DNA from: Chitinophagales bacterium
GTDB lineage: Bacteria; Bacteroidota; Bacteroidia; Chitinophagales; Chitinophagaceae
Length of the DNA stretch: 64,000 nt
Direction: 5' to 3'
NCBI GenBank assembly: GCA_017303395.1
Contig: JAFLBN010000002.1
Coordinates: 1 to 64,000, forward strand
Under the pieces are notes generated by a model. That model did no database searches, was not told the DNA's origin, and worked only from the letters and a program-made list of their open reading frames with translations. Shown in pieces: positions 18,074 through 50,975 of the stretch. A program made the position numbers and the translations under genes. How positions within the stretch are numbered: position 1 is the first letter of the stretch; every line of letters begins with the position of its first letter.

Positions 18074-18147
18074 GGCGAGGTAGCTCAGATGGTTAGAGCG
18101 CAGGATTCATAACCCTGAGGTCACGGGTTCAACTCCCGTCTTCGCTA
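18074..18147 (+). tRNA. tRNA-Met (anticodon CAU)
   Basis: 74-nt cloverleaf: acceptor GGCGAGG (18074-18080) pairs with CTTCGCT (two G-U pairs), D-arm GCTCAGATGGTTAGAGC, anticodon stem CAGGA/ (T)CCTG-type with loop TTCATAA giving CAU at 18108-18110, T-arm ACGGGTTCAACTCCCGT, discriminator A. CAU may be elongator Met, or Ile if the C is lysidinylated; initiator features (GGG/CCC in the anticodon stem) are absent. CCA is not encoded. Its 3' half is the target of the island. Confidence 0.9.
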
Positions 18148-18156
18148 CGCAGAACA
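18106..18156 (+). repeat. attL direct repeat (tRNA 3' half)
   Basis: Identical to 50860-50910 over 51 bp. It runs from the anticodon loop of the intact tRNA to nine bases past its end. Similarity continues to 18178 with two changes. Confidence 0.9.
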
Positions 18157-18180
18157 GGAGCGGCTTTCAGGCCGCTCCTT
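18157..18180 (+). terminator. Terminator after the tRNA
   Basis: 8-bp stem GGAGCGGC/GCCGCTCC, loop TTTCAG, then TTTG. The homologous hairpin beyond attR differs by one compensatory pair. Confidence 0.7.
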
Positions 18181-18199
18181 TGCTTTTCTAAAAACACGT

Positions 18200-18323: not shown

Positions 18324-18770
18324 ATGACAATATTTGGTGTTTACCCAACACAAGATAAATGGAATGAAAGACGCGATTGGGTCGAAAAGCAACTTTTAGA
18401 TCGTTCGGAGTCAGGATCTTTTTTAGTCAGCGAACATGCAACGACCCTCTTTATGGATATGCAACTCGCTTTTTGTGCGGGTGCCTGGCTATCAGTAGTA
18501 ATCACGTCTATTTCTGTAATAGATGCGCAATTAAGGGAAACAGAGGCTGCAAACGACAGTATTGGTACTGCCAAATTGCTTAATGATTATTATAAAGGAG
18601 AAGAAATTAATTGGTTACGACAATTAAGGAACAAGTATGTTCATCACAATATTGCAAATCCAACTAATGACACTTCTAATTGGTATAATAATCAAAACGA
18701 ACTTGAGAAGCATGCAACTAAGGCAATGCAGATGACTATACACGCATTCTTTCAAAGCCCCGGTACATAG
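18324..18770 (+). CDS. HEPN-like helical protein
   Basis: 148 residues, predicted all-helical. The segment WLRQLRNKYVHHN contains Arg102-Asn-x3-His107, which fits the R-[polar]-x3/4-H motif of HEPN domains; catalytic HEPN proteins are RNases, but non-catalytic helpers share the fold. It begins an operon with a P-loop protein (1-bp gap), the PIN/GNAT/PUA fusion and an ASCH protein. It could be the effector or an RNA-binding partner of that set. The HEPN call rests on this motif and the helical composition, so it is tentative. Confidence 0.5.
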   Translation: MTIFGVYPTQDKWNERRDWVEKQLLDRSESGSFLVSEHATTLFMDMQLAFCAGAWLSVVITSISVIDAQLRETEAANDSIGTAKLLNDYYKGEEINWLRQLRNKYVHHNIANPTNDTSNWYNNQNELEKHATKAMQMTIHAFFQSPGT

Positions 18771-18771
18771 A

Positions 18772-19290
18772 ATGAAAAGAACTATCGCATTTATCGGTGG
18801 AATACATGGGGTCGGGAAGAGTACTACGAGCAAGCTCATTTGCGATAAGACAGGATTAAATTACCTCTCTGCTAGTGAAATTATCAAATGGGCTGAATTT
18901 AATAATGATTCAGCTGACAAGAAAGTATTCAATGTCGCTCAAAACCAAAACCGATTAATTATCGGGTTAAAAACTATGGTTAATGCGCGTAATAAATATT
19001 TATTAGACGGACACTACTGTTTGGTGAATAAATTGGGTACGGTAGAGCGTATTCCCCTAGAGATATTTACACTGATAAATCCGTATTCTCTTAATTTACT
19101 TATTGATGACGTATCTCTGATTAAAGACAGGTTAGAAAAAAGAGATTTCAAAATTTATGATATAGATTTGCTTCACTATATGCAGGAAACTGAAATATCC
19201 CATGCCAATGAAATAGCTAAAGTGTTGAAGATTCCGTTGAATATTTTCACCGTAAGGGACATTGACAGAATTGTGAATCTATTAAGATAA
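18772..19290 (+). CDS. P-loop ATPase/kinase-like protein
   Basis: 172 residues. Walker A GGIHGVGKST at 9-18 (Lys16, Ser17) opens the chain; FLLDGHYCLV-like strand (YLLDGHYCL, about 77-85) and an R-L-E-K-R-D-F lid-like helix (about 123-129) recall the adenylate/cytidylate kinase-type P-loop fold (AAA_33/AAA_18 annotations). Substrate unknown. It starts 1 bp after the HEPN-like gene and ends 7 bp before the PIN fusion. Confidence 0.7.
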   Translation: MKRTIAFIGGIHGVGKSTTSKLICDKTGLNYLSASEIIKWAEFNNDSADKKVFNVAQNQNRLIIGLKTMVNARNKYLLDGHYCLVNKLGTVERIPLEIFTLINPYSLNLLIDDVSLIKDRLEKRDFKIYDIDLLHYMQETEISHANEIAKVLKIPLNIFTVRDIDRIVNLLR

Positions 19291-19297
19291 TATCACC

Positions 19298-20797
19298 ATG
19301 AGAGTTTTGTTAGATACAAACATTATCATCCATCGAGAAGCAGGTAAGGTTAACAACCCGGATATCGGAATATTATTTAACTGGCTTGACAAACTTAAAG
19401 CCAGCAAATGCGTCCATCCACTTACTATTGAAGAATTACAAAGGCATCTCGACCCCAGTACAGTGCGCACAATGGGGATTAAAGTCGCTAACTATACTAC
19501 GTTAAAAACGCAGGCACCTTTCGATGGTGATATTAAGCAAATTAGTGCCGCTGTAGACAAGAACGAGAATGATATCAATGATTCAAAAATATTAAACGAG
19601 GTCTATTCAGGCCGCGTTGATTATCTCATTTCAGAAGATAAAAAGATTCACCTTAAAGCGCAACTTCTGAACATTGCTGAAAAGGTATATAAGATTGATA
19701 CCTTTCTGGAAAAGGTAACTGCGGAGAACCCTGATTTAGTAGATTACAAAGTACTGGCTGTTAAAAAGCAGTATTTCGGTGAAGTGAATCTGGCAGACAC
19801 GTTTTTTGATAGCTTCCGGGAAGATTACCGGGGATTTGATAACTGGTTCAATAAAAAGGCCGACGAAATTTCATATGTATGCTATCAGAACGAAGTTCTC
19901 TCTGCGTTCTTGTTTTTAAAAGTAGAAGATGAGAATGAGAATTACTCGGATATCACCCCAGCTTTTACAAAAAAACGCAGGCTAAAAATAGGAACTTTCA
20001 AGGTCACAAGTAATGGCTACAAAATCGGCGAGAGGTTCTTAAAAATCATTTTTGATAACGCACGCATGCAACGAGTCAATGAAATCTACGTAACTATTTT
20101 TGATAAGACAACAGAACACCAAAGACTCATTGCATTGCTGGAGGACTGGGGCTTTAGATACCACGGAACTAAAACAACCCCTACTGGTGATGAGAAAGTT
20201 TTTGTAAGAGTATTTGGTAGAGATATTCAGGTTGACATCAATAATCCAAAACTTACATACCCGAACATATCTAAAGGTAGTGATGTTTATATGGTTTCTA
20301 TTTACCCAGCATACCATACTGAACTATTCCCAGACTCAATCCTAAGAACGGAATCTCCCAAAGAGTTTGTTGAAAATGAGCCGCATCGTAATGCGTTAAG
20401 TAAGGTATATATTTCTCGCTCGCACCAACGAGATTTGAAAAGCGGTGATCTTATAGTATTCTATAGAACTGGGGGACTATACGCTGGGGTTGCAACTACA
20501 GTTGGTGTTGTAGAATCCGTAGTTACTGGCATTCAGGACGAGGCTAGCTTTATTGCATTATGTCGTAAACGTAGCGTGTTTACAGATGAACAGTTAAGTC
20601 TGCATTGGAATTACAATAAGTATGATAGGCCTTTCATCGTAAACTTTTTATATGTAGCTTCATATCCTAAAAGACCAAACCTAAAGTGGTTAATAGAGAA
20701 TAATGTAATAGCTTCGGTCAATGACGCTCCAAGAGGGTTTACGAAAATTACAAGAGAAAATTTTGACAACATAGCCAAATACGCATTCGGAAGATGA
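19298..20797 (+). CDS. PIN nuclease - GNAT acetyltransferase - PUA/EVE-like fusion protein
   Basis: 499 residues in three parts. Residues 1-150: PIN-like RNase domain with Asp6 (LLDTNIIIH), Glu45/46, Asp92-95 and Asp114 (ISEDKKI) at the usual acidic positions. Residues about 170-310: GNAT-like acyltransferase fold with strands around VLSAFLFLKVEDE and IYVTIFD...ALLEDWGFRYHG. Residues about 330-499: PUA/EVE-like domain with KSGDLIVFYRTGG and a GVVESV strand, a fold that in other proteins reads modified bases. The stop overlaps the ASCH gene by 4 bp. The fusion suggests nuclease action on RNA guided or gated by base recognition; cellular target is unknown. Confidence 0.72.
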   Translation: MRVLLDTNIIIHREAGKVNNPDIGILFNWLDKLKASKCVHPLTIEELQRHLDPSTVRTMGIKVANYTTLKTQAPFDGDIKQISAAVDKNENDINDSKILNEVYSGRVDYLISEDKKIHLKAQLLNIAEKVYKIDTFLEKVTAENPDLVDYKVLAVKKQYFGEVNLADTFFDSFREDYRGFDNWFNKKADEISYVCYQNEVLSAFLFLKVEDENENYSDITPAFTKKRRLKIGTFKVTSNGYKIGERFLKIIFDNARMQRVNEIYVTIFDKTTEHQRLIALLEDWGFRYHGTKTTPTGDEKVFVRVFGRDIQVDINNPKLTYPNISKGSDVYMVSIYPAYHTELFPDSILRTESPKEFVENEPHRNALSKVYISRSHQRDLKSGDLIVFYRTGGLYAGVATTVGVVESVVTGIQDEASFIALCRKRSVFTDEQLSLHWNYNKYDRPFIVNFLYVASYPKRPNLKWLIENNVIASVNDAPRGFTKITRENFDNIAKYAFGR

Positions 20798-21162
20798 GAG
20801 CATTATTATCAATAAAACCTGAATACGCCTTCAAAATTTTTGATGGTGAAAAGAGATTCGAATTTAGAAAAATCATTTTTAAGAACCCGAATATCAAGAC
20901 TGTTGTTGTCTATGCTTCATCGCCTGTTCAACAGGTAATCGGTGAGTTTGAAATTGATGACATATTCAGTTTCGCCCCTGATATGTTGTGGGAAATGACA
21001 AAAGAATATTCAGGCATTTCAGAAGAGTTCTTCTTTGAGTATTTTGCTAATAGAGAAATCGCTCACGCAATAAAAATTAAGAAAACACGTCGATACAGAA
21101 AACCTCTTTGTATAAAGGAGGCTTTTAATGCGACCCCACCACAATCGTATATGTACATTTAA
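20794..21162 (+). CDS. ASCH-domain protein
   Basis: 122 residues. MRALLSIKPEYAFKIFDGEK followed by RFEFRK gives the ASCH motif GxKxxExR (Gly18, Lys20, Glu23, Arg25), and the VVVYASSPVQQVIGEF strand follows the standard PUA-like barrel. ASCH proteins bind RNA or nucleotides and some hydrolyse modified cytidines. ATG overlaps the fusion gene stop by 4 bp (ATGA), so it should be co-translated with it. Confidence 0.82.
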   Translation: MRALLSIKPEYAFKIFDGEKRFEFRKIIFKNPNIKTVVVYASSPVQQVIGEFEIDDIFSFAPDMLWEMTKEYSGISEEFFFEYFANREIAHAIKIKKTRRYRKPLCIKEAFNATPPQSYMYI

Positions 21163-21171
21163 ACATTAGGG

Positions 21172-21441
21172 ATGAACGTAATCTGCCTTCAGGATGAAGC
21201 GTTTTATACACTGATAGAACAGGTCATCGAGCGTCTGCGGGAAAAACAACCAACGGCGCAAAGCAAATGGATCTCCGGCGAAGAAGCGATGCGGATGTTA
21301 CGCATCACCAGCAAGACCACGCTGCAAAAACTACGCGATGAAGGGAAAATCCGTTTCTCGCAGCCAGAGAAGAAAATCATCCTGTATGATGTCGAGTCGA
21401 TACAGGCCTATTTAGATCACCATGCAAAATCTACTTTCTGA
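21172..21441 (+). CDS. Helix-turn-helix (MerR/excisionase-type) protein
   Basis: 89 residues. ISGEEAMRMLRITSKTTLQKLRDEGKIRFSQ...ILYDVESIQAYL is the HTH_17-type winged helix common in Bacteroidota mobile elements, where it acts as excisionase or regulator. It lies near attL, as excisionases often do. It overlaps the next gene by 20 bp. Confidence 0.82.
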   Translation: MNVICLQDEAFYTLIEQVIERLREKQPTAQSKWISGEEAMRMLRITSKTTLQKLRDEGKIRFSQPEKKIILYDVESIQAYLDHHAKSTF

Positions 21442-21688
21442 TATGGAACAGGATGAACTCACGGTTGACCCGCATTATCTCAAGGGTTTTAACAACGGTT
21501 ATGAACTTGCGAAACATCAGCCAGATTTGATGGAGAAGCTGTTAGCCAACCCCAATGAGCAAAATCCTTATTTCAAGGGACTTGCAGGGGGGAAAGCGGA
21601 ATATGACAAAGAAGTCCGCGAATGGGCGAATAGCTTTTCCAAAGGCAGCCCTGCAAAGGATGACAGGGATATTGGCAAAGAGCGTTAG
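21422..21688 (+). CDS. Small unknown protein with duplicated YxKGxxxG motif
   Basis: 88 residues (or 81 from ATG 21443). It contains two similar segments, YLKGFNNGYELAK and YFKGLAGGKAEYDKE, about 30 residues apart. Similar small proteins accompany HTH genes in Bacteroidota elements, but no function is known. Its start overlaps the HTH gene. Confidence 0.65.
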   Translation: MQNLLSDMEQDELTVDPHYLKGFNNGYELAKHQPDLMEKLLANPNEQNPYFKGLAGGKAEYDKEVREWANSFSKGSPAKDDRDIGKER

Positions 21689-38966: not shown

Positions 38967-40055
38967 TTAAGCATTGCGTATTTTCTCAATAATAAACTTT
39001 GCAAAATCTTCAGATAGATTCAGTTTGTCTTTACCAAATTGCAATGCACCTAATGTCTTTCCACCAACAGCGGTGATGTCTCCTTCAGGGTATTGATTTA
39101 GAAAATCCTGCCGAAGCCCCCCGATAGTAAAATTGTGATATGACCATCTTGCACCGTATGACGTGGTCATATTTTCAGCAGTGACGTACCAAGGCCATCG
39201 TTCAAGCCATTCTTCTTCCTCCATTTCTTCTTCGCTAACATAAAGCGGATAAGAGGTTGCTCGGTATATCGAAAGTATTTTTGTCGTGCCGACACCATAG
39301 GTTATTAAAATGTCTCCTGGTTTGACACCGTTTGGGCGTTGTTTAGAGAAATGAAGACGTTCTGTTGCTCTGTTAAAAAGTCTGTTTGTCTCTACTGGTG
39401 CGTCAGTATATCCGATTGGTTTTAAAAAATAGTCGATATTTTCATCGAGTTTCTGGTGCCAATTATAAGCAGAGATATGTTCTGTTAGGTCTAAGTCTAT
39501 CTTCCTTTCCTCTGTTTCGGGCTGCTGGTTTAGAAAATCGTTTGCTGCCTCGTGCATCCGGTGGATTTGGTCAAATTCGATTTGTCTGACTTCCAGAGTA
39601 TTTAATATGTCCTGCTCAAGCTTTGCGATGGTTTCACCATCTGAAAATTCAATCCCCCATTCGTGGTTACGCGCTAACCCGCTGTCGGTAAAATTTGCAG
39701 AAGACACAATTGCAGCGATATGCTCGTCATTATTCTTTAAAATATAAATTTTGCCGTGTAACTTGTTATTCAGCGAAACTTGACAGGCTATTTCTCCACT
39801 TTTTATTTTCGGAAAATCAATCAGTGAAACAAGTGAATTTATTTTCTTAATCTGGTCAAATGATCGAGGGGGTAAGGTGGTGACCAAATGAATTTTCTTC
39901 AAAGCGTGAAGTTCTAACTCACTCAGAAAGTCCGTAAAGTCTCCCATCAGGAATGGGCTGACAATAAGCACGCTGTCGCTTTGTGAAAATAGCTCCTTCA
40001 ATCTAATTGAGTGATTTTGGGAGGCAGTTAGATTGTTGATTATTGAGAATGTCAT
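38967..40055 (-). CDS. PLD-family nuclease-like protein with PUA/EVE-like C terminus
   Basis: 362 residues from ATG 40055 (MTFSIINN); an in-frame ATG 17 codons upstream lies before a -7-like TACCTTTA. One HKD motif: His100-x-Lys102 in KLHGKIYIL, with SSANFTDSG (Asn121) and EWGIEF behind it. One HKD implies a dimer, as in BfiI-type restriction nucleases. Residues ~235-330 (VKPGDILITYGVG, IYRATSYPLYV, WPWYV) look like a PUA/EVE-type beta barrel, a fold that can read modified bases. Together this suggests a modification-dependent nuclease. Confidence 0.65.
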   Translation of the reverse strand: MTFSIINNLTASQNHSIRLKELFSQSDSVLIVSPFLMGDFTDFLSELELHALKKIHLVTTLPPRSFDQIKKINSLVSLIDFPKIKSGEIACQVSLNNKLHGKIYILKNNDEHIAAIVSSANFTDSGLARNHEWGIEFSDGETIAKLEQDILNTLEVRQIEFDQIHRMHEAANDFLNQQPETEERKIDLDLTEHISAYNWHQKLDENIDYFLKPIGYTDAPVETNRLFNRATERLHFSKQRPNGVKPGDILITYGVGTTKILSIYRATSYPLYVSEEEMEEEEWLERWPWYVTAENMTTSYGARWSYHNFTIGGLRQDFLNQYPEGDITAVGGKTLGALQFGKDKLNLSEDFAKFIIEKIRNA

Positions 40056-40148
40056 CGCGTCTGTATATATTACAATAAAGGTATCAAACAATAGCACTCT
40101 GCGCACATATGATTTGGTAAATTGCCAAATTGAATTTCTATAAACAAG

Positions 40149-41635: not shown

Positions 41636-44407
41636 ATGCTGCGCATTACCATGAGCAAATCTGCCGAAGGAGCAAAGAAATATTATAGTGAGCCTTACTA
41701 TAAGGAAGGCGCATCGGCGGCGCATGATTATTATGCGGAACGTAATGAAGCGATTGGACGATGGGGTGGGAGAGCCGTAGAATTACTAGGCTTATCAGGC
41801 GATATTGCACGGCATGATTTTGCGATGCTGTGCGATAATATAAGCCCCCTCACCCACAAAACATTAACGGGTAGGCAAGATAAAGACCGCACGGTTGGAT
41901 ATGATTTCACGTTCAATGCCAGCAAGTCCGTAAGCCTCGCCTATGCGCTTGGCGATGCTGCGCAAAAGCAAACCATCCTCAATGCCTTCCATCAATCCGT
42001 TGATGACACGATGCAAGAGATTGAAACGGGCATGCAAGCACGGGTGCGTGCGAGAGGCAAAAATGAAAACCGACTGACGGAGAATATCGCTTATGGAGAG
42101 TTTACCCATTTCACCACCCGACCTATCGACGGTGTTCCTGACCCTCATCTACACAGCCATTGTTTTGTATTTAATGCGACCTATGACGCACAGGACAAAA
42201 AATGGAAAGCAGGACAGTTCCGACAAATAAATCAGGATGCGCCCTATTACGAAGCCATTTTCCATTCCAAGTTGGCGCAGCGTTTGCAAGCCGCTGGCTA
42301 TCGCATCGAGCGCACAGAGAATGGTTTTGAGCTTGTAGGCATAACGAAGGAAACGATTGAAAAATACTCACGTCGCACATTGGAAATTGAAGACTATGCA
42401 CGTGAGCATCATATCACCGATGACAAAAAGAAATCGAATGTAGGTGCGAAGACGCGTGAAGCGAAACGCACGCTTTTATCTCCCGAAGCGCAGGAGACAG
42501 AATGGTTCAGCAGGCTCACGTCGGAGGAATTGACTTCTATTCTGAGCCTCGCGCAACACAGCCCTGTGGTGCGTGATAATTATGCAGCTGTGAATGCTGT
42601 TGACTATTCTCTAAAGCATCATCTGGAGCGCAAGTCGGTTGTGAGCGACAAAGAGATCCTCGCAACGGCGATAAAATCTTCCATCGGTAGTGCAACACCC
42701 GAAGCTATTAAACATGCTTTTGCGGCTGATAATACCATCCTATCCGCTACGGAGAAGCTACGCACGTTTATCACCACGAAAGACGCTTTGCAGGAAGAAC
42801 GCGAACTAATTCGCCGTTGCACGGCATCACGCAATCGATACCGCCCAATTAATGAAAACCACACATTGCAGAACACGCAACTGAATGACCAGCAACAGGC
42901 GGCGGTGCATCATGCGCTTTGCTCGACCGATGGGATTATCCTTATCACAGGCAAGGCTGGAACGGGCAAGACCACCTTGATGAAAGAAGTACAGCAAGGG
43001 ATTCTTGCCAGCGGCAAACAAATCTTTTCGTTTGCACCATCCAGCGAGGCAAGCCGGGGCGTACAACGCAACGAGGGCTTTTCGGATGCCGATACGGTTG
43101 CTAAACTCCTTACGGATATGCGGCTGCATCCTCAACTGAAGCACCAAATCATCTGGGTAGATGAGGCAGGTTTGCTTTCCAATCGCGACATGAATGCGGT
43201 GCTGGCAATTGCAGAAGCGCAGAGTGCGCGGGTGATTCTGTCGGGCGATAGCAAGCAGCATCGCAGTGTGGAACGTGGAGATGCGTTGCGCATCATCCAG
43301 CAGGAAACGGCTATTAAGCCCGTCACGGTCGATAAAATCCAACGCCAACACCATGCAGCGTATAAAGAAGCCGTGCATTTGCTGTCGCACGGCAAGGTGG
43401 AGCAAGGCTTTGCGAAGCTAGACCAGATTGGCGCCATTCATGAAATGCCCGATAGCAAGGAACGCATCGAAGCCATTGCGGATGAATATTATCGCACAGC
43501 GTATGACAGATACAACGCGCCCACGAAGGAAGTGCTGGTGATTGCACCAACCCATGCGGAGGGCGATGTTGTGACCGAGAATATACGTGAGCGGTTACGT
43601 GAACATCAGCTTATCGGGCAGGAAGAGCGCAGCTACACAACACTTAAAAACCGCAACTTAACCGAGGCAGAGAAACAACGCCCTGAGAATTACAACGCAG
43701 GGGATGTGGTCGCATTCCACCAACATTGCAAAGGCATTAAAGCGGGTAAGCGGCTGGAGGTGCTGAAAGCCGATGACACGAATCTCTTTGCTAAAGACAC
43801 GAGCGGAACGGATTATGCCATCGCATACTCCGAAGCGAAAAAATTCACAGTGTATGAACCTCGGCAACTGCATGTTGCAGAGGGCGATAAAATCCGCATC
43901 ACGGGCAATGGCAAATGCCTCGATGGGAAGAGCCTGTTTAATGGCTCGACCTACCATATCGAGGGGTTTGACGCACAAGGCAACATCACACTTTCTAACG
44001 GGTCATCCATTTCGCCGGAGTATGGACATTTTACCATGGGGTACGTCGGCACATCCCATGCCTCGCAAGGCAAAACGGCGGATAAGGTTATCATTTCGCA
44101 AAGCTCGGCCACCTTCCGTGCATCTTCGATGGAACAATTTTATGTGTCCGTATCGCGTGGGCGACAAGCGGTCTCGATCTACACCGATGATAAAGAGCAG
44201 TTGCTCGATGCGGTCAGCCATTCATCCGAACGCATTTCCGCCAGTGAGTTGATGGAAAAACGACAAGCGCACACGCAGGAAGTCAACCGCCTTGCGCAAT
44301 TGCGACGATGGCAGGAACAACCATACATGCAAACATTAAGCCCTCAAATCAGCAATGATGGACTTCAGACAACGGCTAGACCAGAGCAGAACGAAGCTTG
44401 CAGGTAG
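41636..44407 (+). CDS. MobF-family relaxase-helicase (TraI/TraA-like)
   Basis: 923 residues; SD GAGGAG 2-8 bp before ATG. Relaxase domain: N-terminal Tyr pair (Tyr16/17) and the three-His metal site DPHLHSH (His171, His173, His175). The RecD-like helicase has Walker A GKAGTGKTT near residue 440, Walker B VDEAGLL and later helicase motifs (SHASQGKT, YVSVSRGR). The protein nicks oriT, binds covalently to the 5' end and unwinds the strand for transfer. It is directly followed by a small overlapping gene; TraD is on the opposite strand. Confidence 0.95.
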   Translation: MLRITMSKSAEGAKKYYSEPYYKEGASAAHDYYAERNEAIGRWGGRAVELLGLSGDIARHDFAMLCDNISPLTHKTLTGRQDKDRTVGYDFTFNASKSVSLAYALGDAAQKQTILNAFHQSVDDTMQEIETGMQARVRARGKNENRLTENIAYGEFTHFTTRPIDGVPDPHLHSHCFVFNATYDAQDKKWKAGQFRQINQDAPYYEAIFHSKLAQRLQAAGYRIERTENGFELVGITKETIEKYSRRTLEIEDYAREHHITDDKKKSNVGAKTREAKRTLLSPEAQETEWFSRLTSEELTSILSLAQHSPVVRDNYAAVNAVDYSLKHHLERKSVVSDKEILATAIKSSIGSATPEAIKHAFAADNTILSATEKLRTFITTKDALQEERELIRRCTASRNRYRPINENHTLQNTQLNDQQQAAVHHALCSTDGIILITGKAGTGKTTLMKEVQQGILASGKQIFSFAPSSEASRGVQRNEGFSDADTVAKLLTDMRLHPQLKHQIIWVDEAGLLSNRDMNAVLAIAEAQSARVILSGDSKQHRSVERGDALRIIQQETAIKPVTVDKIQRQHHAAYKEAVHLLSHGKVEQGFAKLDQIGAIHEMPDSKERIEAIADEYYRTAYDRYNAPTKEVLVIAPTHAEGDVVTENIRERLREHQLIGQEERSYTTLKNRNLTEAEKQRPENYNAGDVVAFHQHCKGIKAGKRLEVLKADDTNLFAKDTSGTDYAIAYSEAKKFTVYEPRQLHVAEGDKIRITGNGKCLDGKSLFNGSTYHIEGFDAQGNITLSNGSSISPEYGHFTMGYVGTSHASQGKTADKVIISQSSATFRASSMEQFYVSVSRGRQAVSIYTDDKEQLLDAVSHSSERISASELMEKRQAHTQEVNRLAQLRRWQEQPYMQTLSPQISNDGLQTTARPEQNEACR

Positions 44408-44742: not shown

Positions 44743-45696
44743 CTAGATTTTAATTGGATGCTTTTCCAAATGCACCCAATCAATAATCGTTGCTAAATCA
44801 GGATAGTGGATTGGCACTTTTGGCACGAGCGGCGGTGCGTTTTTCTTACCCTTTGTCGCTTTCTTTTCCTCCATTTTGTTCTGTTGCATGCTCTTGTGTA
44901 ATTCGCGCATGGCTTTGGCTTCTATCGCACTGTCTTTGAAGTCCAGTATTTTGCCTTCTTTCGCCATTTCCCTGCGGCTGGCATGAATGGCGACGGCAAA
45001 CCCCATGATATAAAACAGGCATTTCCCCAGAAGAAACGGATAGTCATAGGCGAACCAGAAAAAGAATAATGGTTCGAGAATCATGTTAGTGAAGGCTGTT
45101 TTGTCCGTAACTAATTTCGGGTGAGGCATATCCTTTTTGGAATCTGAATTTAAAGGATCACCTATAATATCGACAATTATCCATGCAATCCCGTTGATAA
45201 GCCATATGACTGGCTCTGCAACATGTTCTAGCCATGAAATACCATCGTCGTAGGAGTGAATATCGTCTTTGGTTTTATTTCTAAACCATATGTAGAATAG
45301 GCGAATGACGCCGAGAGCTGCGTAAAGGGAAAGTAGGTAAAACAGGTCCACACTAGCGGCAAAATTTCCTACTGCATCTTTAGAATAAAATGGATTGAAG
45401 GTGCTTTCGAGCGTTGTAAGCCAGTAGCAAACATAATCGAATACATATTGCAGCGCAAAGAACGCACATATCAGAAGTGCTCCTGCATAGAAGTTCATCG
45501 GGGTGAACCAACGACGACCGAACCTGTACCTGAGAAAGACTTCAGCAGGGATGGTGAACCAACCAAGGATGCTTAACATGCGCCCGAATGCGTGTGATTC
45601 ACGCGCCCATTTACGCAAGCCGCTCATGTCACGCGCTTTGCTTACAACATCGCCACTTTTAATTGGCTTGATGGGTATTTTTACGGTCTCGCTCAT
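44743..45696 (-). CDS. Multi-helix membrane protein next to traD
   Basis: 317 residues with about five hydrophobic segments (near 70-92, 115-135, 160-180, 215-235 and others), a long basic C-terminal tail (KMEEKKATKGKKNAPP). The gene overlaps the traD-like 3' end by 4 bp (ATGA), so it is translated with it. Probably a conjugation accessory membrane protein by position only. Confidence 0.65.
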   Translation of the reverse strand: MSETVKIPIKPIKSGDVVSKARDMSGLRKWARESHAFGRMLSILGWFTIPAEVFLRYRFGRRWFTPMNFYAGALLICAFFALQYVFDYVCYWLTTLESTFNPFYSKDAVGNFAASVDLFYLLSLYAALGVIRLFYIWFRNKTKDDIHSYDDGISWLEHVAEPVIWLINGIAWIIVDIIGDPLNSDSKKDMPHPKLVTDKTAFTNMILEPLFFFWFAYDYPFLLGKCLFYIMGFAVAIHASRREMAKEGKILDFKDSAIEAKAMRELHKSMQQNKMEEKKATKGKKNAPPLVPKVPIHYPDLATIIDWVHLEKHPIKI

Positions 45697-47116
45697 GATT
45701 TCTGTTGTTTGAATTGTGCGAATAGATGTGTTTTCTCATTGTCCCACATACGCCCGTTCTGGAAAACGATCGCCTCAACAATATGGTCATTCACTGCACC
45801 CCCTTTTTTGAGTTTGGTGAAGGATTGCGGCGGCACGTCGTAATCAAAACTTTCGTTCTGCCCATTGCTGACATTAAAATGTTCACCGCCATAGCTCTCG
45901 CTGGATGTTTGCCGTATTTGCCAGCTTCTGCCGATGGTTTCGGCTGCGTGTTCGTTGGTCATGGGATCGCTGTTGGCGTGCCATATCTTGGTTTGTAAAT
46001 TGCCAATCAACGAATCTACACGATACTTGCTTTGCGCGCCGCCCATGACTGCATAATAGTTCGGTAGGTTCTGTGTAAGATACACCGTGCAAGCACGCGA
46101 GCTGCGTGCGGTTGCCTGAAACTGCATGTCGTATTCGGTCACAAAATTCTGCGCCTCATCCACCCATAAAAACACAGGGATGGTTTCATTTGTAACGGCA
46201 CGTCGCTCTGCCGCTTGCTGCCAAAGATATTTATAGACCACCTGGGCAGCCCTGCCCGCATCGCCAAATTCTTTTACAGGCAGGTTCATCACAATGATAA
46301 CCCCACGATGAGAGAGTTCCGGGTAGGCAATTTTACGAGAGTCGCTAGGCTGTTCAGAAAACAGCCTGCGGAATGGACGCGTAAGAAAATATCGAGCATG
46401 GTCGAGAGGGTAGAAACGATGCTGGAACGTGTTTTGTCGGCAAGGTTGGGATATTCCTCCAGCCAGAAGGATGCCGTACTATCAAAATCATGCTTTGCCC
46501 ATTGGTCTAGCTGCTGCGCATGGCCTTCCAGTAGTAACTTCCAGCACAGACTTTTATTTTTCCATTCGTCCGTATCGATCTGCGCAACGCTTGTTGGAGC
46601 TGATAAGATAATATCGTGTATGAGTGGCACGGATACTGTGCCGCGAGCAATCATGCAGAGGTCGATCGTGTTACGTAAAAGCTGCTGCATGGCACGTGTC
46701 CAATAGGGGTCGCTGTCACCCTCGATGCTGCGGTCAATCGCTTCATAGACCGTGGTAAACAACCTCACGAGATTATCGGTGTAACCAGCGCCCTCACCTT
46801 CACGCTCTATTTCGTATTGCAGGAATGGGAACACAAAATCGCCTGAGGCATCAAACACAAGGACTTGCTTGTCGCGTCCTGTTTCTTTGGCGTAGCGCTG
46901 CCAATCATTGAGTACATCTTTTTTCGCACAGAGGACTAGTCCGCCGAATCCTGCTTCAAGGAATGCTTTAGCGATGGATTCACCACTGCCGCTTGTCTTG
47001 CCGGAGCCGATGCCGCCGAATATCTGTATGCCCTCACAGGCATTAGCGATGGTAAATGGTTCTTCCTCATTGAAAGCGTAGATCACACGCTCAAGGCTGA
47101 AATCTGGTGATGGCAT
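45693..47116 (-). pseudogene. TraD-like coupling ATPase, frameshifted
   Basis: Two frames make one coupling protein. The 5' part has Walker A GGIGSGKT (residues 34-41); the 3' part has Walker B VFLWVDEAQNF and the LTQNLPNYY sensor region. The join is at a run of four A on the plus strand (46386-46389; T on the coding strand). One more T there would read through as D-I-F-L-T-R-P-F-R-R-L-F-S-E-Q into the second frame, whereas the present frame ends in a nonsense tail. This is a one-base deletion, a sequencing error, or programmed slippage. The protein would carry relaxase-DNA to a mating channel. Confidence 0.8.
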
Positions 47117-47938: not shown

Positions 47939-48532
47939 ATGGCACGGTTGGATGAATTTAAAAGCCACCTGAAAGCAGGTAAAGTCTATCGCCGGTCAGA
48001 ACTGGCCCGTTGGTCTAATGCTGTCGATAGACAGCTTAGTTTGCTTGTAAAAGACGGGACGTTAGAAAAATTATCTCAGGGAATGTACTACGTTCCCAAA
48101 AAGACGGTATTCGGCGTAGCTCCGCCGGATGAGGAAACACTTGTCCGTACGTTTTTAAAGGATGATGATTTTCTGCTGACCTCTCCTAATGCCTATAACA
48201 GTCTGGGTGTCGGCACAACACAGCTATACAATAAACGTGTCGTTTATAATCATAAACGCCATGGGGAATTTGTTTTGGGTGGCAAGAAGTTCTTTTTTCA
48301 TGCCAAGCATCGTTTTCCTAAAGAAGCTACCCCAGAGTTTCTGCTGGTTGATCTGGTCAACAATCTGGGAAGTTTAGCCGAAGATAGAGAGTATGTTTTG
48401 AGCAATGTAGTTGCAAAAGCAAGGACTATGCCGTTGCCCAAATTAAAGCGTGCTGTTTTAAACTATGGCAATACAAAAGCAAAAGCATTGCTGACACCAT
48501 TATTCACCGAAAACAATGAACATGCCCACTGA
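47939..48532 (+). CDS. AbiEi/DUF6088-type antitoxin
   Basis: 197 residues. N-terminal winged helix (LKAGKVYRRSELARWSNAVDRQLSLLVKDGTLEKLSQGMYYVP) followed by the DUF6088/AbiEi C-terminal domain (LLTSPNAYNSLGVG). It represses its own promoter and neutralises the AbiEii transferase in known systems. The end overlaps the toxin gene by 17 bp. Confidence 0.85.
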   Translation: MARLDEFKSHLKAGKVYRRSELARWSNAVDRQLSLLVKDGTLEKLSQGMYYVPKKTVFGVAPPDEETLVRTFLKDDDFLLTSPNAYNSLGVGTTQLYNKRVVYNHKRHGEFVLGGKKFFFHAKHRFPKEATPEFLLVDLVNNLGSLAEDREYVLSNVVAKARTMPLPKLKRAVLNYGNTKAKALLTPLFTENNEHAH

Positions 48533-49478
48533 GTATCTTCACGAGAGAAAAGACTTCCCCGATTTGCTACAAATCATTGGCAAAGAAATGGGCATTTTGC
48601 CTTATCTCATCGAAAAAGATTACTGGATCATGCATGTGCTGCATGGCCTGCAAAAGCAGGGGTTTAAGTTCGAGCTAAAGGGTGGTACTTCCTTGTCCAA
48701 AGGCTACGGCATTATTGACAGATTTTCGGAAGATATAGACATTCATATTACACCTCCGGAAGGCTACGAAGTAAAAACTAACCCAAAGAATACAAAGGGT
48801 GCTGCGGTTGAATCACGCAAGCTGTATTACGATAGGCTCGCACGTGAGATACAAATTGATGGGATAATCAACATCGAGCGCGATACCGCCTTTGATAATA
48901 CGAATACATATAACAGTGGTGGTATTAGGCTCCATTATCACAGCCATACCGAAAAGATTGAAGGCGTGAAGGAAGGTATCTTGCTGGAAGCAGGGTTTGA
49001 TACCGTTACGCCCAATGAAAAATTGACTATCAGCTCGTGGGCTTACGATACTGCCTCCAAAACTGATGGCGTTATCATCCAAGATAACAGAGCAATTGAT
49101 GTTTCATGTTACCACCCAGGCTACACCTTCGTTGAAAAACTACAAACCATTGCAACGAAGTTCAGGCAAGAGCAGGAAGAAGGTAAAATCAATCAGAACC
49201 TGATGCGACAATATTATGATGTCTATAGCCTACTTGCGGTTCAGAAAGTACAAGACTTTATCGGCACAGATGCCTACCATAAACATAAAGAAGCAAGGTT
49301 TACAGGAAAGGAAAGAGGGCTCGTCATTGCAGAGTCTGAGGCATTATTTTTAAGTGACCCAGAGTTACGATCACAATATGCTCAAAGATATAAGGGTACA
49401 GCAACGCTCTATTATAAAGGGCAGCCCGCTTTTGAAGAGTTACTAGCAAGAATCAAAGCTAATATTCATAAGCTGTAA
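48516..49478 (+). CDS. AbiEii-type nucleotidyltransferase toxin
   Basis: 320 residues. ELKGGTSLSKGYGIIDRFSEDIDI gives the GGT/S motif at 56-59 and the two catalytic Asp at 73 and 75; the C-terminal DUF1814-like part follows. AbiEii toxins transfer nucleotides to tRNA or other targets and abort phage infection. Overlap with the antitoxin gene implies coupling. Confidence 0.9.
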   Translation: MNMPTEYLHERKDFPDLLQIIGKEMGILPYLIEKDYWIMHVLHGLQKQGFKFELKGGTSLSKGYGIIDRFSEDIDIHITPPEGYEVKTNPKNTKGAAVESRKLYYDRLAREIQIDGIINIERDTAFDNTNTYNSGGIRLHYHSHTEKIEGVKEGILLEAGFDTVTPNEKLTISSWAYDTASKTDGVIIQDNRAIDVSCYHPGYTFVEKLQTIATKFRQEQEEGKINQNLMRQYYDVYSLLAVQKVQDFIGTDAYHKHKEARFTGKERGLVIAESEALFLSDPELRSQYAQRYKGTATLYYKGQPAFEELLARIKANIHKL

Positions 49479-49482
49479 GGCA

Positions 49483-50694
49483 CTATCCGCTAATCACCGC
49501 CTCCAGCGCATCATCTGCACTTTTGTTGATGAAACTGGACTGGTAGCCTATCGTTGTAAGGATATTGCTGTGGCGGTATAGTTTCTGCAACATCTGCACG
49601 GGTATTCTATCGCCTGACACATTGCCAAAAGTATGCCGCGATATGTGCATGGAAATCGTCTTATTGACACCTGCTTTTTTCGCCACTTCTTTCAGGTCTC
49701 TATTGATTGGGCCTAACTTGGTTTTTATCCTGACCTGCACGGCAAATGTATCATCAAGATTTGCAAGCCCTTTCAGGTCGGGGAATACCAGATCGGTTTC
49801 ATCCTTTTCGTTTCGGTACTGGTCTAGAATCTGCATAGCTTTGTCGGGCACTTTCAGGCTGTCGACTTTGTTGTTCTTACCCATCATGTAAAACAGCCTG
49901 TCATTCTGAAAATCAGACCATTTGAGGCGCATTACATCCGAAACGCGCATTCCGGCGAAGTAAAAAGAAAACAGCCAGATATTGCGGGCATGGTTCTCGT
50001 TTGGCACATCCGATAAATCGACATTCTCAAATGCAACAACATCCTCGATATTGCAGCCGACCTTCATGCTCTCCAGCATCTTGATGCTGATATTACCCTT
50101 GCCAAAAGGGTAGTACTTTGGGTCGCACAGTTTTTCCTCGATAGCCTGATTGAATATTCGGCGTATCAGCGCAAGATAGTTCATTGCAGTGCGCTCTGAA
50201 ACGTTACGTTCGGATTTGAGCCATGCTTTAAAACGCTTGATAAGCGGTATCGTAAAATCCGAGAATGCGATATCGTTTTTGAGAAATTGCTTGAGATATT
50301 TTATACGCGGTTCTTCCGCTTGTAGTTGGTTATATTTTTTGTCTTTCTTTAGTCGCTCCAGAAATAGATCCGCCTGTGCGAACACTGAACCATTTGCATA
50401 GGGTTTGATTTTTTTACGAACGGATTTTGCGGTAACATCTGGCTGTGTTGTTTCAAGTTCCAGTGAATGATTATTGGCTTCCGCTTTTTTTGTGAGCAAA
50501 AAATTGTTGAGTCTCACTGAATTTGGGTGCGACTTTTTTACCCGTTCGTTAGTTGCATCCCAATCTTTCTCGTGGATGTAATATCCGGTATGTATGAAGG
50601 CGGATTTTCTATCTTTGGTGATACGTATTGCAAGGGGATATGTATCGTTTGTTTTCTGCTTTTTGCGTAATACGATTTTGATAGTTGTTCCCAT
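49483..50694 (-). CDS. Bacteroidota-type tyrosine integrase of the island
   Basis: 403 residues. N-terminal arm-binding domain (TIKIVLRKKQ...YPLAIRITKDRKSAFIHTGYYIHEKDWD), SAM-like core-binding domain (FLKNDIAFSDFTIPLIKRFKAWL), and a catalytic domain with Arg in FAGMRVSDVMRLKW, HxxR in HISRHTFG, a second His and Tyr in ILTTIGYQSS. It should recombine attP with the tRNA-Met site; it sits 166 bp inside attR, the usual position. Paired GGTACAACA repeats lie upstream of its start. Confidence 0.95.
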   Translation of the reverse strand: MGTTIKIVLRKKQKTNDTYPLAIRITKDRKSAFIHTGYYIHEKDWDATNERVKKSHPNSVRLNNFLLTKKAEANNHSLELETTQPDVTAKSVRKKIKPYANGSVFAQADLFLERLKKDKKYNQLQAEEPRIKYLKQFLKNDIAFSDFTIPLIKRFKAWLKSERNVSERTAMNYLALIRRIFNQAIEEKLCDPKYYPFGKGNISIKMLESMKVGCNIEDVVAFENVDLSDVPNENHARNIWLFSFYFAGMRVSDVMRLKWSDFQNDRLFYMMGKNNKVDSLKVPDKAMQILDQYRNEKDETDLVFPDLKGLANLDDTFAVQVRIKTKLGPINRDLKEVAKKAGVNKTISMHISRHTFGNVSGDRIPVQMLQKLYRHSNILTTIGYQSSFINKSADDALEAVISG

Positions 50695-50754: not shown

Positions 50755-50859
50755 TTTTGCGGTATTGCCTGAATTTTTATGAATTGATAAAAATTAGAAG
50801 TGCCTACCAGAAAGGCTTTTAGCGCCATATCGCATCATATCACACCATCTATATCAGCC

Positions 50860-50910
50860 TTCATAACCCTGAGGTCACGGGTTCAACTCCCGTCTTCGCT
50901 ACGCAGAACA
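50860..50910 (+). repeat. attR direct repeat (tRNA-Met 3' fragment)
   Basis: 51 bp identical to 18106-18156. The first 42 bases are the tRNA 3' half (anticodon loop to discriminator) with no 5' half, so this is a non-functional tRNA remnant. Confidence 0.9.
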
Positions 50911-50936
50911 AGAGCGGCTTTCAGGCCGCTCTTTTA
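50911..50936 (+). terminator. Hairpin beyond attR (original tRNA terminator)
   Basis: AGAGCGGC/GCCGCTCT stem, loop TTTCAG, then TTTT. Homologous to 18157-18180 with a G-C to A-T pair exchange. Confidence 0.7.
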
Positions 50937-50975
50937 TTTTTATCCCTTCGATTTTCTGTAATCTTTATAGATGTA

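Follow-up and report, generated by a model that had tools for sequence, protein, structure and literature searches.

Positions 1 to 64,000 of the forward strand of contig JAFLBN010000002.1 from Chitinophagales bacterium (GCA_017303395.1), a 64,000-nucleotide stretch hereafter called the window, carry at one end of a repeat-bounded island a four-gene operon. We read it, with evenly balanced confidence, as a toxin-antitoxin defence module of the (PIN)-GNAT-EVE/ASCH type that would act on an RNA of the translation apparatus, with an AAA_17 protein and the product of the first gene as optional accessories. Three of the four genes (genes 2 to 4) belong to a (PIN)-GNAT-EVE/ASCH/AAA_17 module that had already been predicted, and the new part is gene 1. 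Among close relatives the pairing of genes 3 and 4 is nearly universal, the acidic residues of the PIN domain are conserved and AAA_17 is a frequent partner, and gene 1 is repeatedly co-located with such modules.

All four genes lie on the forward strand. Gene 1 (18324..18770) codes for a weakly HEPN-like protein of 148 residues, a rare accessory; gene 2 (18772..19290) for a P-loop protein of 172 residues that is AAA_17- and adenylate-kinase-like, with the Walker A sequence GGIHGVGK and a DGH motif; gene 3 (19298..20797) for a fusion protein of 499 residues, the predicted toxin, comprising PIN (1-134), GNAT (151-308) and EVE/ASCH-like (327-498) domains; and gene 4 (20794..21162) for an ASCH protein of 122 residues, the predicted antitoxin. 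By their open reading frames, successive genes are separated by 1 bp and 7 bp and then overlap by 4 bp. The curated Pfam cut-offs are passed by AAA_17 in gene 2, PIN_3 in gene 3 and ASCH in gene 4, with HEPN_Cthe2314 in gene 1 and EVE in gene 3 falling below them. Gene 3 matches the PADLOC model PDC-M11A (E 1e-216 over 495 residues) and gene 4 its partner PDC-M11B (E 2e-50), PDC being a label that we take to stand for phage-defence candidate. Further, the predicted structure of gene 3 resembles VapC, the NAA/RimI acetyltransferases and ZmASCH, the re-ranking with VIA-align being confined to the top chains returned by Foldseek itself.

The accessible part of Bell et al. 2020 (PMC7641849) describes EVE domains fused to the C-terminus of GNAT domains, often with an N-terminal PIN domain, in operons that nearly always contain ASCH and often AAA_17; it predicts a toxin-antitoxin function, suggests charged tRNA as a possible target, and places GNAT-EVE versions in prophages and PIN-GNAT-EVE versions near restriction systems. 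Additionally, the record of Escherichia phage PhiR47_2 (PV340567) labels GNAT-EVE and ASCH relatives as "GevT toxin" and "GevA antitoxin". A sequence-only reading of the window had proposed four genes with the above spacing in an island beside attL, which the open reading frames and an 87-nt repeat confirm; its AAA_17, PIN and ASCH calls stood, its EVE call fell short of the Pfam cut-off and its HEPN call is likewise sub-threshold. Its proposal of a toxin or defence-type module that combines RNA-acting domains with an acetyltransferase agrees with the PDC-M11 matches, with this part of Bell et al. and with the GevT/GevA labels, RNA cleavage and acetylation by the operon being activities that we infer. 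It knew of no described system with this gene set, a statement that can hold only for gene 1 because genes 2 to 4 are already described, as PDC-M11 and in PMC7641849.

A profile scan of genome contigs with gene 3 confirmed 296 relatives; the counts use the best 80 and so cover close relatives. In 70 of the 80 loci the fusion gene has an ASCH gene as its direct neighbour, and in 7 more ASCH lies within 1.5 kb of it; in the remaining three the contig stops 83, 824 and 1180 bp past the fusion gene. An AAA_17 gene adjoins the fusion gene upstream in 36 loci and is found nearby in two (38/80 in total), and five of the 42 loci without it have less than 700 bp of contig upstream. In three loci of one genus (L009, L010 and L012), ASCH and AAA_17 form a single protein. 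No homologue of gene 1 occurs in the 80 loci.

The multiple sequence alignment of the fusion protein was built from 97 loci, less L001 (the window again) and L097 (a gene in two pieces) and with the window protein added, which gave 96 rows; four rows of 480 residues or fewer (L008, L012, L016 and L018) were not counted, leaving 92. Across these, the PIN acidic residues D92, D95 and D114 never vary, the D6 position holds aspartate in 90 rows and a gap in two, and E46 is glutamate in 87 and aspartate in five; in the GNAT loop, G240, G244 and E245 are likewise invariant. The ASCH alignment (95 rows) shows invariance of K20, E23, R25, Y40, P44, W66, Y83 and P116-Q117-S118. The closest solved ASCH structure to the gene 4 family profile is that of ZmASCH (5GUQ, E 2e-30), which is described in the accessible part of PMC5615036 as a weak nuclease that cuts single-stranded RNA and not DNA, though it does bind single-stranded DNA, and in which Tyr47, Lys53 and Ser128 matter. 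The positions of Tyr47 and Ser128 are conserved in the ASCH family; that of Lys53 is Gln46 in gene 4. Erasure by gene 4 of an acetyl-cytidine mark in the manner of YqfB was considered and rejected: the accessible text of PMC6972931 gives YqfB a Thr-Lys-Glu triad of Lys21, Thr24 and Glu74 with an essential Arg26, and as the position of the catalytic Thr24 is Glu23 in gene 4, and glutamate in 95 of 95 rows, such chemistry is not expected. Gene 2 matches Pfam AAA_17 with E 3e-10 and is homologous to the AAA_17 protein of the 38 loci; among solved structures it comes closest to adenylate kinases (2bwj, E 1.5e-8), and G10, G15, K16 and D79-G80-H81 are invariant in 45 AAA_17 rows.

The (PIN)-GNAT-EVE/ASCH family is widespread, with members in bacteria, archaea and phages. 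In phage records, some of which are duplicates, 14 of the 16 matches to gene 3 start after residue 136 and so are without PIN, and in IMG/VR 11 of 14 start at residue 152 or later, whereas 15 of the 33 matches in plasmid records start at residues 1-4; these PIN-less phage matches and plasmid matches from the N-terminus onwards agree with the contexts given in the consulted portion of Bell et al. 2020 (PMC7641849). Of 5426 complete E. coli genomes, 274 contain the GevT/GevA pair (as in L016:3983-5411) by a near-match search, at 99% identity or above, with one copy per genome that is chromosomal in every case. In the archaeal prophage psiM100 (L017:2554-5346), the PIN-GNAT fusion ORFD lies mostly within the annotated inserted fragment IFa. 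Other accessories were also observed. A recurrent family stands near PIN-GNAT-EVE/ASCH genes in 16 of the 80 loci, as family A (L021, L034-L037, L043, L045, L062, L066, L080 and L093) or family B (L085, L092, L094, L096 and L100), the two being related by profile comparison (E 1.6e-4). Of 13 members scanned, 12 have a hydrophobic stretch close to the C-terminus, the shorter open reading frame of L036 being without it, and four representatives fall below every Pfam cut-off. Genes for HNH_5-type endonucleases lie directly upstream of AAA_17 in L044 (5657-6457, by Pfam) and of a 685-residue protein in L140 (6127-6999, by sequence likeness).

Gene 1 was found in four places only, the window and the loci L111, L112 and L118, by searches of overlapping genome sets. 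Among 395 genomes of the class, its own copy was joined by two strong relatives (E 1.7e-57 and 1.2e-51); the same search gave 18 genomes at E 0.1 or better, 15 of them weak (E 0.005-0.1) and dropped, and the weak matches inspected were an 814-residue open reading frame (L104) and a protein that is lipoprotein-like by eye (L106), the latter judged to be chance. A third strong relative came from the order of one strong-match genome. Counted by order, and including the named genome's own copy, gene 1 is present in 2 of 87 genomes for G651 and 1 of 7 for G397; it is present in 0 of 296 for G343, a set without a positive control. Beyond its own copy, none was found in 395 genomes of the phylum or 298 of its own order, and searches of plasmid, phage and IMG/VR sequences gave no homologue. 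The profile built from all four members yielded no further convincing copy in 142 loci, its weak match in L106 being rejected and that to the AAA_17 open reading frame of L004 (E 0.013) taken as chance. The motif of the HEPN superfamily is Rx4-6H, and the RNxxxH motif of gene 1 conforms to it, with R102, N103 and H107 invariant in the four members. The protein, folded alone, is predicted to be all-helical with a mean pLDDT (predicted local distance difference test) of 50. It is likely, though unproven, that gene 1 encodes a HEPN protein.

In three of its four places, in two lineages, gene 1 accompanies a PIN-containing GNAT protein and ASCH, and its position differs in each. L112 reads, 5' to 3', helix-turn-helix, type IIG restriction-methyltransferase, a 711-residue protein, ASCH and gene 1; L118 reads helix-turn-helix, type IIG-like, gene 1, a 691-residue protein and ASCH, its parts being named from their 75-93% identity to the L112 counterparts (78% for the type IIG gene). 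No AAA_17 gene lies in the 17-kb stretches of either. In L111, gene 1 follows a SIR2-like DUF4917 gene (PDC-S21) and precedes PDC-M19A/B; the 17.5-kb stretch examined contains no fusion gene. Only in the window does gene 2 stand beside gene 1, an optional accessory that occurs with and without AAA_17. Gene 1 of L112 is no closer to that of L118 (68.5% identity) than is that of L111 (68.9%), whereas the proteins around it in L112 and L118 share 75-93% identity. Repeated entry of gene 1 into modules of this kind would fit, without being proven by, its differing positions and its lower conservation than these neighbours. The sequence-only reading had treated the four genes as one set. Their homologues do co-occur, in that ASCH adjoins the fusion in 70 and AAA_17 in 36 of the 80 loci and gene 1 keeps company with ASCH and a GNAT protein that contains a PIN part in three of four places, and both the PIN active residues and the HEPN-like motif residues are conserved; the set is not fixed, AAA_17 being optional and gene 1 rare.

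The large proteins of L112 (9141-11276) and L118 (5879-7954) exemplify a distinct architecture of 685-712 residues, in which a canonical GNAT domain precedes the PIN part, and which was also seen in L138/L139, L140, L141 and L142, including Prevotella, Calothrix and Nostoc replicons. Each of the six genomes seen has an ASCH gene next to it, and L112, L118 and L141 also have restriction genes at its side. Gene 1 is absent from the examined stretches of the other four genomes (L138-L142, with L138/L139 being contig ends of one genome). The N-terminal GNAT is recognised by Pfam in the 711-residue (E 8.5e-13) and 691-residue (E 2e-11) proteins, and residues 184-384 of the former form a PDC-M11A-like PIN part (E 5e-12) with the acidic residues in register. 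The C-terminal part of both proteins is colinear with the fusion family over 313 columns at a non-significant level (E 0.011, probability 3.8%), so that the assignment of internal GNAT and EVE-like regions to them is tentative. On that alignment, the internal GNAT-like region seems to have lost its acetyl-CoA loop.

These features suggest a mechanism in which, in the uninfected cell, the ASCH protein would restrain the fusion protein by binding either to that protein or to the RNA that it recognises. Infection would upset this balance, and the EVE-like domain might then guide the fusion to a structured RNA with a modified base, most probably a tRNA, on which the GNAT domain could acetylate a primary amine, either that of the amino acid on a charged tRNA or that of a base, and which the VapC-like PIN domain could cut, bringing translation to a stop. 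A tRNA or other translation RNA is the most likely target on account of the VapC-like PIN, the RNA-cutting relative of the ASCH protein and the amine-directed GNAT fold. The AAA_17 protein is placed on the ASCH side because the two are one protein in three loci, and it might act there as a nucleotide-dependent switch; gene 1 could supply a second RNA-cutting or RNA-binding activity.

Several observations weigh against this reading. The pairing counts may drop in distant relatives, as the best 80 loci are the closest, and L112 and L118 are not independent, since both belong to one genus and the search that gave L118 was aimed at the order of L112. The Pfam family PF18730 (HEPN_Cthe2314) scores 18.4 bits in the motif region of gene 1 against a cut-off of 27.1, and the other three members yield nothing in Pfam at a threshold as loose as E 5; comparison by hhalign of the four-member family with PF18730 matches gave 0.3% for L119 (above the Pfam cut-off) and 0.1% for L120 (below it); a Foldseek search with the gene 1 model returned nothing at E 0.001 or better; and the best E in a profile search of the PDB was 0.3. 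The tyrosine at the YxxxGF position, present in NAA50, is a defining trait of the aminoacyl-tRNA acetylating GNAT toxins of the TacAT/AtaRT type; its counterpart in gene 3 is L281, with leucine in 83 of the 92 rows, and the GNAT chemistry may therefore differ from that of the toxins that acetylate charged tRNA, or be lost. Finally, Bell et al. 2020 (PMC7641849) say of the modules that none had been characterised, and a literature search found no paper on GevT/GevA, nothing relevant on PDC-M11 or PhiR47, and no published mechanism or measured activity for the (PIN)-GNAT-EVE/ASCH family.

Gene 1 might instead be unrelated defence-island cargo that was inserted upstream by chance and has no role in the module, which we consider unlikely, if worth serious attention. 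In L111 it stands beside PDC-S21 and PDC-M19 without a fusion gene, and its absence from the 80 best fusion loci and from the L138-L142 stretches points the same way. Against this, three of its four copies are in operons that also encode ASCH and a GNAT protein with a PIN part, at differing positions, and chance co-location within 10 kb comes to about 1e-4 per copy, reckoned from strong fusion matches in 12 of 395 genomes and a genome size of 4 Mb, a rough figure that the clustering of defence genes would raise.

A second alternative, which appears quite improbable, is that the module acts on modified DNA, with the EVE and ASCH domains reading phage DNA bases, the GNAT domain acetylating a DNA base and the whole working alongside restriction-modification systems. 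The company of restriction systems speaks for it: the consulted portion of Bell et al. 2020 (PMC7641849) associates PIN-GNAT-EVE with type I restriction-modification and refers to Iyer et al. 2013 on the acetylation of bases, the L112 operon and that of L118 carry their related type IIG genes, and the Calothrix locus L141 has a cytosine methyltransferase and an Eco29kI-type endonuclease. However, the PIN domain is VapC-like, ZmASCH acts on single-stranded RNA in the nuclease role noted above (PMC5615036), and no restriction-modification gene lies inside the window operon.

A more elaborate version of the RNA-directed module is less probable still: a system on tRNA in which GNAT would write an acetyl mark, the EVE-like domain would read a modified base, cutting would fall to PIN and the HEPN-like protein, and ASCH with its kinase partner would guard or erase the mark, the HEPN-like family being a new interchangeable effector of PDC-M11. 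The addition of a canonical N-terminal GNAT in L112 and L118, together with the apparent loss of the acetyl-CoA loop from the internal GNAT-like region, would be expected if acetylation were essential to function. Least probable, and very much so, is that two independent modules (HEPN-like protein with kinase, and PIN-GNAT-EVE with ASCH) merely adjoin at the island end, where unrelated cargo often gathers: genes 1 and 2 are only 1 bp apart and a promoter-like match (11/12) to sigma-70 lies just upstream of gene 3 at 19262-19291, in a scan with fewer matches (7) than the shuffles (11.7), but AAA_17 goes with the fusion gene and without gene 1 in 38 of the 80 loci, gene 1 goes with ASCH and a PIN-bearing GNAT protein and without AAA_17 in the 17-kb stretches of L112 and L118, kinase and ASCH are one protein in three loci, and genes 1 and 2 are neighbours in the window alone among the four places. 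No site of the Bacteroidota-type promoter pattern was found near the four genes, nor any excess of it over chance.

With the (PIN)-GNAT-EVE/ASCH toxin-antitoxin reading, the locus helps to separate a core, the fusion and ASCH, from exchangeable parts, namely AAA_17, the HEPN-like and HNH proteins and the family with the hydrophobic C-terminus, and the kinase-ASCH fusions put the kinase on the ASCH side. The substrate of the GNAT domain, the target of the PIN domain and the mode of protection by ASCH are questions now open to specific tests.

The island is integrated at a tRNA-Met (CAT) gene (18074..18148, forward strand, ARAGORN), from which gene 1 starts 175 bp downstream, and is bounded by an 87-nt direct repeat with copies on the forward strand at 18101..18187 (attL) and 50855..50941 (attR) that are 93% identical. 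Its tyrosine integrase (49483..50694, reverse strand, Pfam Phage_integrase) lies at the end opposite the operon. A stem-loop followed by a T-run occurs at 18156-18179, between tRNA-Met and gene 1. An HTH_17 gene (21172-21441) begins 9 bp past gene 4 and is overlapped by an 88-residue open reading frame at 21422-21688; it may be on the same transcript, resembles an ordinary island regulator and is not of the VapB type by Pfam. Elsewhere in the window there is an AbiEi/AbiEii toxin-antitoxin pair (47939-49478) that belongs to this island and immediately precedes the integrase near attR; a protein (38967-40106) whose N-terminal domain is a phospholipase D-type nuclease (RE_NgoFVII, E 8e-11) and whose C-terminal region is EVE-like by eye only; and an apparently split TraG/TraD-like coupling protein (45693-47116), in two overlapping open reading frames in different frames of which the C-terminal one alone has the Pfam match, with a TrwC-type relaxase nearby (41636-44407).

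Compared with known systems, gene 3 departs from the GNAT toxins of the TacAT/AtaRT type in having L281 in place of their tyrosine. Gene 4 has in common with the N4-acetylcytidine amidohydrolase YqfB the ASCH superfamily and the lysine and arginine of K-x-x-T-x-R, as given in the accessible text of PMC6972931, and differs in Glu23 at the catalytic threonine; with ZmASCH of Zymomonas mobilis (5GUQ) its family shares the Tyr47 and Ser128 positions and differs at Lys53 (Gln46). The acidic active site of VapC (D6, E46, D92, D95, D114) is present in gene 3, where, unlike in VapC toxins, the PIN domain is fused to GNAT and EVE domains and the direct neighbours are AAA_17 and ASCH, with no VapB-type protein. 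GevT of PhiR47_2 (PV340567) consists of GNAT and EVE parts and shares 36% identity with residues 154-492 of gene 3, and its gene is overlapped at its end by that of the ASCH protein; this pair differs in being without PIN, in having no kinase or HEPN-like gene among its annotated neighbours and in being carried by a lambda-like phage. The closest counterparts are the operons of Bell et al. 2020, in whose main text (PMC7641849) the term HEPN does not appear: to their domain order in gene 3, adjacent ASCH, frequent AAA_17 and mobile or defence contexts, as far as the accessible part describes them, the window operon adds a HEPN-like gene.

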